Assembly (NCBI GenBank): GCA_030833445.1 | Contig: JAURHD010000002.1 | Location: 1-64,000, forward strand | Reading direction: 5' to 3' | Length of the DNA stretch: 64,000 bases | Origin: Cephaloticoccus sp. | Lineage (GTDB): Bacteria; Verrucomicrobiota; Verrucomicrobiia; Opitutales; Opitutaceae | Part shown: piece after piece, positions 17,906 to 20,860 of the stretch | Numbering within the stretch: position 1 is the first letter of the stretch | Layout of the letters: each line of letters opens with the position of its first letter | Translations under genes and position numbers: made by a program | Notes under the pieces: generated by a model | Told to the model about the DNA's origin: nothing | Seen by the model: the letters and a program-made list of their open reading frames with translations, nothing else | The model's database searches: none

Positions 17906-18871
17906 TTAGGGTTTCTTCTTTGAACGGCTCTCGGCCAGTTGAAATCGCGCATAAACTTCCTTGGCCTGCAACAATTTCAAATTACCGGCGGGGGCCTGCA
18001 CCACGATATTGGTCGGCGAGTTGAGTGGATACGGACCGTATAGTTGCGGATCGGTCGGCCCAAATATGGCCAGGGTATTCACGCCCAATCCGGCAGAAAG
18101 ATGCATCGGTCCACTGTCATTTGAGACCACCCAGTCACAATGCTGAATGAGAGCCGGCAGGGACACCAAACTGGTATTGCCGGTCAGGTTCATGAAACGG
18201 TCTTCCGGCAGACCAACCCGGGCCGGGATATAGTTATTGCCCGCCCAAATCACCTTACGTTGACGGTTACCCCGCACCATCAACTGCGTGAGCAGTTGAA
18301 AGCCGCTCCACTTTTTTTCGGCCCGGCGACTATCCGGAAACATCAGAATCGGCTTCAAGCCTCCCTTGGTTTCAGCAAACGGCAGGCTCAGCTTGTCGAC
18401 TTCGCGAAATTTTAGTTTCCCACGCAACTCCGGCTTGGCATCGAGCACCGGACAAAACTGCAGGAGGATATCCAAGGCATGGCTGCGGCGCCCACCCGCG
18501 GGCAGAGGCACTTTTTGATCATAGAAGACCCCCGACCATTCACGCGAATCCGTGCGACCGACCGTTTTCTTGGTAACGGCCCGGGAGGCCATCAAACCGG
18601 AACGCAGCAGGCCCTGCATATCAAATACCCAGTCAAACTTGGTTTTGCGGACTTCCCGCATCAGACGAAGGAAGCCCTTGGTGCCGGCATTGCGCTCAAA
18701 AATGAAAACTTGGTCCACCGCGGCGCTGGCCTGCACGATTGGCGCAAAAATATCCCGCACAATCCACGAGATCCTCAGATCCTTGCATTGAGTTTTTAGG
18801 GAGGTGGCTACCTGCAGGGCGTGGATAATGTCACCGAGTGACGAGGGCTTGATGATCAGAAGTTCTACCAT
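17906..18871 (-). CDS. glycosyltransferase family 9 protein (LPS heptosyltransferase-like)
   Basis: A 321-residue GT-B enzyme similar to WaaC/WaaF heptosyltransferases, which add heptose to the inner LPS core. It starts with the family pattern LLIIKPSSLGDIIHALQVA. The nucleotide-sugar pocket motif SNDSGPMHLSAGLGVNTLAIFGPTDP is clear near residues 240-265. The donor sugar cannot be told from sequence alone. It is divergent, across 93 bases, from a gene that also contains a family 9 domain, so the pair probably belongs to one core-glycan locus. serS follows 8 bases downstream. Confidence 0.88.
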   Translation of the reverse strand: MVELLIIKPSSLGDIIHALQVATSLKTQCKDLRISWIVRDIFAPIVQASAAVDQVFIFERNAGTKGFLRLMREVRKTKFDWVFDMQGLLRSGLMASRAVTKKTVGRTDSREWSGVFYDQKVPLPAGGRRSHALDILLQFCPVLDAKPELRGKLKFREVDKLSLPFAETKGGLKPILMFPDSRRAEKKWSGFQLLTQLMVRGNRQRKVIWAGNNYIPARVGLPEDRFMNLTGNTSLVSLPALIQHCDWVVSNDSGPMHLSAGLGVNTLAIFGPTDPQLYGPYPLNSPTNIVVQAPAGNLKLLQAKEVYARFQLAESRSKKKP

Positions 18872-18964: not shown

Positions 18965-20860
18965 GTGCTAAAACTCTTTCTCCAAACCCTCGGCTGGACC
19001 CTAGCCCATACCCCCCGGCCTTTACTGAAACTGTGCTCTGGATTGGTCGGCGGGTTACTCTATCTCATCCGGCGGCGGACCTACCTGAGTAATCTGCATC
19101 ATGCATTTCCTGAGCGCACTACCAGTGAACATCGACGGCTAGCCCGGGAGAGTTCCCGCCGCTTGGTGGAGACCGGTCTGCTCACCTTGGCGACTCCCTT
19201 TCTTTCGGAGGCCGACATACGTCACATCGTTTACGCCACCCCAGAGGCCACGGAACTCTTGGAAACTCAGCGGGTTTCACCTCACCCCACCCTTCTCCTC
19301 ACACCGCACGCAGCCTACTGGGAAGCCATTTCGACCCTCCCACTATTCGGAATCCAACCCGCACCCGATATTGCCGCCATCTTCCGGCCAGTGGAAAACG
19401 AATCACTGAACGAGTGGATCAAACAATGCCGGGAGCGTTTCGGGATTCGGCTCCTTTCGCGCAAAGACGGCTTTCAGGAAGCGATCAAGTTGCTGCGGAA
19501 CAAAGGCAGCGTCTTTCTGTTGTATGATCAAAATGCAGGAATGCAGGGCGCGCTGACCACTTTGTTCGGCCGGGTTTGCTCCACGAGCGAATTGGCCGGT
19601 TTGTTGGCCCAAAAATTCTCGGCCAAAGTTTACATGGTCTACGCCGAGCGGTTTGATTTCTGGAAATTGAATGTTCGATGCGAACCCTTGGAATCGGATG
19701 GCACGACTGGCGGAGTGACCATCGCGGTGAACCAGTGGCTGGAATCTAGATTAGGTTCCTCGGAAAATCTCTGTGCCTCGTGGCTCTGGGCCCATGAACG
19801 CTGGAAAAATCAGGACATTCCGGCGAAGCGACTACGATTGGAGGCCAAGCGCAATTTGCTCAGCGAGGACCTGGCCATCCGCAACCTGACTGCCATGCCC
19901 CGGCGCACCCGCATCTGGATCCGGATGCCCAATTGGCTGGGGGATGTAGTGATGCTGATACCGCTCCTCCGCGCGATTCGCGAGGGACGGCCGGATGCCG
20001 AAATCACGTTGGTGGCCAAACCGGGCTTCCATGACTTGCTGATGCAGCATCGACTGGCAGACCGGGTGCTCGATCTCCCACCAAAAGGCTGGGGCTATTT
20101 TCTCCATTTTTGGCGACTACGTGGGGCATACCCCGATTGCTATTTCTTGTTCACAAACTCTCTGCGTGGGGACCTTGAAGCTTGGCTGACGGGAACTCGG
20201 CAACGTTTCGGCATTCTTCGTCCGGGAAGACGTCGGCCCCTATTGTCACATACCTTTAAGGTGCCGGCGGATTTTGAAGAAAAGACGCACCACCAATTGG
20301 GTCTCTGGACCCTATTCCTCCAGCATTTTGGTTTAATCGCACCAACCCAACTCCAACCCCTCTTGCCGCGCCAATTGGAAACGGAGCGCACCATCGGATT
20401 GATTGCCGGCTCGGAAAATAATCCTGAGAAGCGCTGGCCGGTTTCACATTGGGTCGAATTTATTTCCCTACTACCGACCAATGTGAAAATCGTGATGTTC
20501 GGCACACATACGGATCGATCCATTACCGATGAAATTGCCGTGCGCTGCAACCGGTCGGTCGAGAACCTCGCGGGCAGAACCTCGCTGTCGGAATATTGTG
20601 AAAGCCTCAGGCAATGTTCGGTGCTGGTGACCAATGATACCGGGGGGATGCACTTGGCCAACGCCCTCGGGGTTCCGTTGGTCGCCTTGTTCGGTCCCAC
20701 CAATCCAATCCGCACCGGCCCCGTGTTTGATGCTGCGGTAACTATTCTGCAGCCGCCGGATTGCCCGCCAACTGGCGGTGGCGATCTCAACGCACTCACT
20801 CCAATTCAAGTTCACGACACCTTGCGGCAACTACATCCCGAATGGGTCGCATCAGTTTAA
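18965..20860 (+). CDS. fusion of LpxL/HtrB-type lipid A acyltransferase and family 9 glycosyltransferase
   Basis: A 631-residue protein with two complete domains. Residues 1-295 match the lysophospholipid acyltransferase family of lipid A late acyltransferases: the HX4E catalytic motif is His115-Glu120 in TPHAAYWEAIS, YDQNAGMQGALTTLFGR is the second conserved block, and SWLWAHERWK is the usual C-terminal block. Residues 311-631 are a family 9 glycosyltransferase, opening IWIRMPNWLGDVVMLIPLLRA and carrying NDTGGMHLANALGVPLVALFGPTNP. The gene would thus couple acylation of lipid A with heptose transfer to the core at the membrane. The start is a GTG. The frame is continuous, with no hint of a sequencing join. 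Confidence 0.88.
   Translation: MLKLFLQTLGWTLAHTPRPLLKLCSGLVGGLLYLIRRRTYLSNLHHAFPERTTSEHRRLARESSRRLVETGLLTLATPFLSEADIRHIVYATPEATELLETQRVSPHPTLLLTPHAAYWEAISTLPLFGIQPAPDIAAIFRPVENESLNEWIKQCRERFGIRLLSRKDGFQEAIKLLRNKGSVFLLYDQNAGMQGALTTLFGRVCSTSELAGLLAQKFSAKVYMVYAERFDFWKLNVRCEPLESDGTTGGVTIAVNQWLESRLGSSENLCASWLWAHERWKNQDIPAKRLRLEAKRNLLSEDLAIRNLTAMPRRTRIWIRMPNWLGDVVMLIPLLRAIREGRPDAEITLVAKPGFHDLLMQHRLADRVLDLPPKGWGYFLHFWRLRGAYPDCYFLFTNSLRGDLEAWLTGTRQRFGILRPGRRRPLLSHTFKVPADFEEKTHHQLGLWTLFLQHFGLIAPTQLQPLLPRQLETERTIGLIAGSENNPEKRWPVSHWVEFISLLPTNVKIVMFGTHTDRSITDEIAVRCNRSVENLAGRTSLSEYCESLRQCSVLVTNDTGGMHLANALGVPLVALFGPTNPIRTGPVFDAAVTILQPPDCPPTGGGDLNALTPIQVHDTLRQLHPEWVASV

Follow-up and report, generated by a model that had tools for sequence, protein, structure and literature searches.

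Can one bacterial gene encode two enzymes of LPS assembly, and, if so, are the two steps tied to each other? The question is raised by a locus in a Cephaloticoccus genome (GCA_030833445.1), of which we analysed a window of 64,000 nucleotides (contig JAURHD010000002.1, positions 1 to 64,000). An earlier note on this window described the gene at 18965..20860 as a fusion of an LpxL-type acyltransferase (residues 1-295) with a complete GT-B glycosyltransferase (GT) of family 9 (residues 311-631), a description that the reading frame, the Pfam matches and a structural model all bear out.

One frame with two enzyme domains

The gene is a single open frame of 631 aa on the forward strand (as are all its parts below), with a predicted GTG start at 18965 and a stop that ends at 20860. 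The frame remains open upstream of this GTG (672 aa from stop to stop), and in most full-length relatives among the matches listed, the match starts at query residues 1-7. The late acyltransferase domain (residues 1-295; 18965..19849) matches Lip_A_acyltrans (PF03279) at residues 9-281 with 92.1 bits, passing the gathering cut-off of 22.3. It is followed by a linker (residues 296-310; 19850..19894), modelled as a short strand (296-297), a helix (299-305) and then coil. The C-terminal Rossmann half of the GT (residues 466-631; 20360..20857), which we take to be the nucleotide-sugar side of the GT-B fold, is supported by Glyco_transf_9 (PF01075; residues 474-596, 97.5 bits, cut-off of 22 passed) and by alignment with E. 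coli WaaF (1psw). The N-terminal Rossmann half (residues 311-465; 19895..20359) lies outside the Pfam match; it is covered by the match to the HepII equivalog model TIGR02195 (residues 317-629) and by the predicted structure, and weakly by the 1psw alignment. The TIGR02195 score (114.6 bits for the whole protein, 118.1 for the GT half alone) is below the cut-off of 134.6, and the GT half is therefore filed only as WaaF-like by sequence and not as WaaF. Likewise, the fusion reaches no NCBIfam LpxL/LpxM cut-off (80.2 bits for the best lipid A model, cut-off 248), so that the acyltransferase half is not classed as an LpxL equivalog.

Active-site residues are conserved in both halves. The HX4E motif (H115-E120; 19307..19324) and the end block SWLWAHERWK, to which the earlier note had pointed, are both present in the acyltransferase half, and H115 and E120 of the catalytic HX4(D/E) are invariant (1.00) in 101/101 aligned full-length fusions, with D188-Q189 (19526..19531) conserved at 0.99 each. 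In the 5kn7 and 5knk alignments, E120 falls on the A. baumannii LpxM Glu that is replaced by Ala in 5knk, whose title names this change, E127A, as one of a catalytic residue. In the GT half, D327 of PNWLGD (residues 322-327; 19928..19945) aligns with the Asp of SWVGD in E. coli WaaF. K489 of KRWP (489-492; 20429..20440), which has the same letters in 1psw, and D558 and H563 of NDTGGMH (557-563; 20633..20653), placed by the 1psw alignment, are each at 1.00 in the 101 fusions.

An AlphaFold2 model built on 48 aligned relatives resolves two domains with confidence (mean pLDDT 91.6, pTM 0.89). In Foldseek searches with this model, the GT half matches E. coli WaaF (1psw; E 3.6e-20, TMt 0.77) and the acyltransferase half matches A. 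baumannii LpxM (5knk/5kn7; TMt 0.68). The GT9 structures 1psw, 3tov and 2h1h are matched whole by the GT half, and no solved chain spans both halves in the best 50 of 219 matches at E ≤ 0.001, where the highest TMq is 0.44. Chains of the plant NDH-PSI supercomplex (9grx_1, 7f9o_6 and 7wff_a) also match the fusion model, with TMt of 0.60-0.65.

The host genome (G000; 2.92 Mb, 72 contigs) groups with Opitutaceae, and the closest named fusion locus, at 64% identity, belongs to a Cephaloticoccus MAG. At E ≤ 0.001, the fusion is the sole PF03279 match in this genome, which also holds one Kdo-transferase (KdtA) N-domain match (185 bits), HldE domain II (C29; 143 bits, E 8e-42) and GmhA (C4; 178 bits, E 3e-52), the last two, which belong to the ADP-heptose pathway, below their curated cut-offs of 181.5 and 209.45, respectively. 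KdtA is present in 45/45 near genomes of good quality, eight of them with a disrupted GT. Three GT9 places in the host match the query, and their best models are HepII for the fusion, HepI for its divergent neighbour and HepIII for a third (C55). The neighbour, on the reverse strand at 17906..18871, is indeed a family 9 enzyme, as had been supposed: a standalone, HepI (WaaC)-like GT9 (TIGR02193, 127 bits, cut-off 185.3).

Our reading, to which we assign a probability of roughly 0.8, is that the gene encodes a bifunctional LPS enzyme anchored in the inner membrane, which combines a late acyltransferase with a heptosyltransferase, most likely HepII. We infer that the N-terminal helices would anchor the protein at the inner membrane, where the acyltransferase half, as the only LpxL-family late acyltransferase detected in the host, would attach a secondary acyl chain, probably taken from acyl-ACP, to the Kdo-lipid A precursor. 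The product of the divergent WaaC-like gene would then add the first heptose, and the GT half would take ADP-heptose and add an inner-core heptose, most likely the second (HepII). Proximity may let both halves act on one molecule.

GT decay and HldE in Opitutales

In 163 Opitutales genomes, we scored three domain models (acyltransferase, GT N-half and GT C-half) and, for each enzyme, examined four residues (H115, E120, D188 and Q189; D327, K489, D558 and H563). The set consists of the 155 genomes matched in the order minus ten that were left unclassified, plus 18 from a nearer set. Among the unclassified genomes, strong HldE matches are present in G522, G536, G575, G590, G607 and G623 and missing from G137, G185 and G303, the remaining one being G512; no GT is seen at the G137 and G185 loci. 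G013 was also left out (L126; acyltransferase match, no GT, HldE at 57.5 bits). Both GT halves lie in the acyltransferase frame in 119 of the 163 genomes, 99 with all four checked GT residues intact and 20 with a changed or unread residue. A further 25 retain the N-half only, 13 have no recognisable GT, 5 are cut by contig ends and 1 is a split pair.

Across the same 163 genomes, the acyltransferase residues read HEDQ in 157, HDDQ in 2, HEGR in 2 (G043 and G540) and QEDQ in 1 (G557), and are partly unread in 1. Because these residues persist without an active GT, the chemistry of the acyltransferase half is probably independent of heptose transfer. In the two HEGR genomes, a full-length fusion is altered in both halves (L124 in G043, L340 in G540), with Asp327 changed to Asn in the GT and DQ to GR in the acyltransferase, and G043 has a second LpxL-type gene (L222). 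Standalone and more canonical LpxL genes are found in some Opitutales (L113, L114, L138-L142 and L215-L221; 100-226 Pfam bits, most above 200), where they are perhaps replacements of the fusion.

The state of the GT is associated with that of HldE. A strong HldE was defined as a domain II match of at least 125 bits, a threshold that was set after the scores had been seen and lies in a gap between 129.1 and 100.9. With the five contig-end-cut frames and the split pair (G049) excluded, strong HldE accompanies 92/99 intact GTs versus 7/58 disrupted ones (Fisher p 8e-26, with no correction for kinship), and in the 114 genomes that are at least 90% complete, 69/71 intact or split GTs versus 5/43 disrupted ones. 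On the acyltransferase tree (FastTree, 157 rows), where G049 was counted as intact and G005 was dropped for its short longest domain piece, the GT needs 19 changes of state and HldE 18. Eleven independent pairs that differ in GT state can be drawn (starred branches), in which HldE differs in the same way in 5.8 pairs on average, in the opposite way in 0.0 and not at all in 5.2 (median p 0.031; one opposite pair in a few pairings). With at least 90% completeness, the same kinship correction leaves 8 pairs (3.8 versus 0.0, median p 0.125). The link between HldE and the GT is weaker after this correction, yet runs in one direction, and the uncorrected p values make it look stronger than it is.

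The exceptions fall on both sides. Seven intact GTs lack a strong HldE, five of them in genomes that are 50-83% complete, the others in G502 (97%) and G615 (91%), and disrupted GTs occur with strong HldE in G010, G038, G040, G496, G515, G558 and G643. Of these, G040, in which K489 is changed to Ile, and the truncated G010 and G038 stand as counterexamples. A strict rule by which GT loss equals HldE loss was rejected, with 14 exceptions in 157 genomes in addition to the loci taken for Akkermansia (below). Both states are also found among close relatives: family f125 includes an intact GT with HldE (G494), full-length GTs whose motifs are broken, without strong HldE (G506 and G563, the latter 82% complete) and an N-half alone, again without strong HldE (G544), while in genus g57 of family f11, G093 has an intact GT and HldE and G624 has a truncated GT and no HldE. 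GmhA, which has a good match in some GT-disrupted genomes (G051, G010 and G038), was kept out of the table because related sugar isomerases cross-match. In family f16 (e.g., L277-L281), the GT half is motif-dead or truncated in 16/16 classified genomes, four of which have a weak HldE-like match (80-88 bits) and the others none at E 1e-20; another heptose route may be in use there.

The divergent HepI-like gene follows the intact GT as well, adjoining 40/61 intact versus 1/37 disrupted fusions whose flanks are long enough (the other 38 intact and 21 disrupted fusions, in 59 genomes, have flanks too short to score). A homologue of this gene is present in 67/77 named loci with enough flank, 3 of the 80 not being scorable. 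The proposal that a single polypeptide would tie lipid A acylation to inner-core glycosylation has indirect support only, in that strong HldE and the HepI-like gene accompany the intact GT. Strict coupling is unlikely, because many lineages keep the acyltransferase residues next to a dead GT half.

Retained GT halves and the joining of the two genes

The GT is at least partly retained in 45 of the 58 disrupted genomes and lost altogether in 13. In the 25 N-half-only proteins, PNWLGD is complete in 0 of the 20 that are readable, and Asp is found at 327 in 5. Thirteen disrupted pairs were tried for dN/dS, and the GT N-half gave a value in 7, the other 6 being saturated or without an N-half match. 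In truncated forms, the N-half and acyltransferase values are 0.31 versus 0.05 (G531/G510) and 0.31 versus 0.12 (G625/G632), with an N-half value of 0.29 and a saturated acyltransferase in G521/G039. Full-length dead GTs (G541/G513, G563/G506 and G043/G540) give 0.10-0.26 for the N-half, 0.11-0.21 for the C-half and 0.09-0.21 for the acyltransferase, and G597/G551 gives 0.71 for the N-half versus 0.45 for the acyltransferase. The dead GT domains are under purifying selection in most measurable pairs, and this selection is relaxed in the truncated forms. Such constraint points to a structural or regulatory role, though it is no proof of one. We put at a shade under an even chance that the fused GT died many times and was often kept as a pseudo-GT that holds, folds or steers the late acyltransferase, including in the putative Akkermansia.

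These last loci come from a genus that we take for Akkermansia (g67 in family f23; L167-L172 and L195-L197). PNWLGD is replaced in 9/9 of the loci read and the GT half is degenerate; it lies in the acyltransferase frame in seven loci, while L171 is truncated and L172 is in two overlapping frames. Strong HldE is present in 8/9 genomes read, with none in G228, and the decay of the GT in this genus therefore does not follow HldE loss. The available parts of two reports describe core oligosaccharides of A. muciniphila with one heptose (PMC13135019, PMC12527988), which would fit the loss of a second heptosyltransferase. According to the available part of one of them, the lipid A of strain HW07 is mainly tetra-acylated with primary chains only, hexa-acylated species are cited for the type strain, and the HW07 acyltransferase gene is described only through its low identity to LpxL (PMC12527988). 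The fusion acyltransferase of HW07 may therefore be weak or idle.

In genus g85 of family f31, the GT-B fold is instead split at its hinge. The acyltransferase and the GT N-half share one frame, and the GT C-half has a separate frame downstream (G323, G467 and G489; L133, L180 and L161/L212). PNWLGD in the N-half and KRWP in the C-half are read in G323 and G489, and the start codon of the C-half is plausible in two genomes and doubtful in G489. The junction in L180 contains repeat-like sequence. The sister genus g89 has the complete fusion in G375, G475 and G486, with G402 cut by contig ends. Alg13/Alg14-type enzymes, which we take to be split GT-Bs made of two polypeptides, are like g85 in this respect, but differ in donor and acceptor, and the g85 N-half is joined to an acyltransferase.

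The query is matched in 54/57 near genomes and in 354/387 genomes of the phylum (E ≤ 1e-8), and among the matches listed, those beyond the class are confined to the GT half. In 20/20 genomes of other classes with a good GT match, the GT9 is a separate frame, and the fetched flanks of these GT9s, some of them short, contain no acyltransferase match (own model, E ≤ 0.01). Many Opitutales families have full-length fusions, as do 28 loci from 15 families of the class outside Opitutales; these class-level loci and the 20 from other classes were picked by score and yield no frequencies. In six class loci (f32, f97, f101 and f106), the two genes are adjacent, with stop-to-stop frames that overlap. 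In the loci read, f32 holds both fused and split states and f97, f101 and f106 are split, and within Opitutales, G049 also encodes the acyltransferase and the GT as two proteins. Rooting the GT tree on other classes puts the class rows on the same side of a 98* branch, with the HepIII-like GT9 of the host placed inside this side, unsurely, on a long branch. The fused or split state needs 3 changes on this tree (54 class rows, G049 taken as split), and the fork at the split-pair clade f97/f101/f106/f32 is unresolved, such that the split may be ancestral or a fission.

The adjacent, overlapping frames in f97, f106, f101 and part of f32 are what one might expect if the fusion were a neutral joining of neighbouring genes, with independent halves and no coupling of steps, and the acyltransferase residues that outlast GT loss in many lineages agree with this. 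Such a history is, however, at odds with the small number of fused/split changes and with the retention and constraint of dead GTs described above, and we regard it as a real possibility but not the favoured one. Within the bifunctional reading that we prefer, the assignment to HepII is a separate matter. The GT half could use ADP-heptose for the first heptose, for a later one or on another acceptor: GT9 subfamilies are hard to separate by sequence, the HepII cut-off is missed, and a branch of length 1.68 leads to the Opitutales GTs in the GT tree. We consider this unlikely, since the best family match is HepII, the best solved structure is WaaF, and separate HepI-like and HepIII-like GT9s are found in the host genome. 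Finally, an assembly or annotation artefact in which a missed stop joins two genes, the outcome that the earlier note had named as its refutation, finds no support at this gene, even if G049 and the six class loci do encode two proteins, and is ruled out with near certainty by stop-free full-length frames across many unrelated assemblies, among them the single-contig genomes G012 and G040, and in 112/134 loci (fetched by similarity, some sharing a genome).

Relation to known enzymes and meaning

Like LpxL/LpxM (HtrB/MsbB; PF03279), the fusion has the HX4E motif, the fold and the end block, in a host with a match to the Kdo-transferase family; unlike them, it bears a whole GT-B enzyme at its C-terminus. 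With WaaF (RfaF; GT9), it shares the GT-B fold, D327, KRWP and ND(T/S)G..MH, and 1psw is its closest solved structure, but WaaF is a free enzyme, whereas the GT half here is fused to an acyltransferase. The LpxC/FabZ fusion of Verrucomicrobia, Bacteroidetes and Chlorobi likewise joins neighbouring genes of the lipid A pathway in the same phylum, but belongs to the early pathway, according to the part of the paper available, in which the sole passage with "fused" concerns lpxC-fabZ and "fusion" is absent (PMC3087551). The titles, abstract openings and passages covered, with few subscription journals among them, contain no description of an acyltransferase-GT9 fusion; domain databases may list this architecture. 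Widespread in its class, the fusion is a variation on known enzymes rather than a wholly new kind, and its natural disruptions form an unusually clear series.

Two LPS steps that are carried out by separate enzymes in E. coli are thus placed on one chain in a large bacterial class, so that one can readily test whether LPS enzymes benefit from being physically linked. That the GT has repeatedly been lost alone, largely in step with HldE, a gene of the donor pathway, offers comparative evidence as to which donor the GT half uses. The surviving series runs through intact, motif-dead full-length, N-half-only, hinge-split and fully lost forms, and if the pseudo-GT proposal is true, it shows an enzyme turning into a structural partner. 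The putative Akkermansia relative is relevant here, as its lipid A is under study for its effects on the host.
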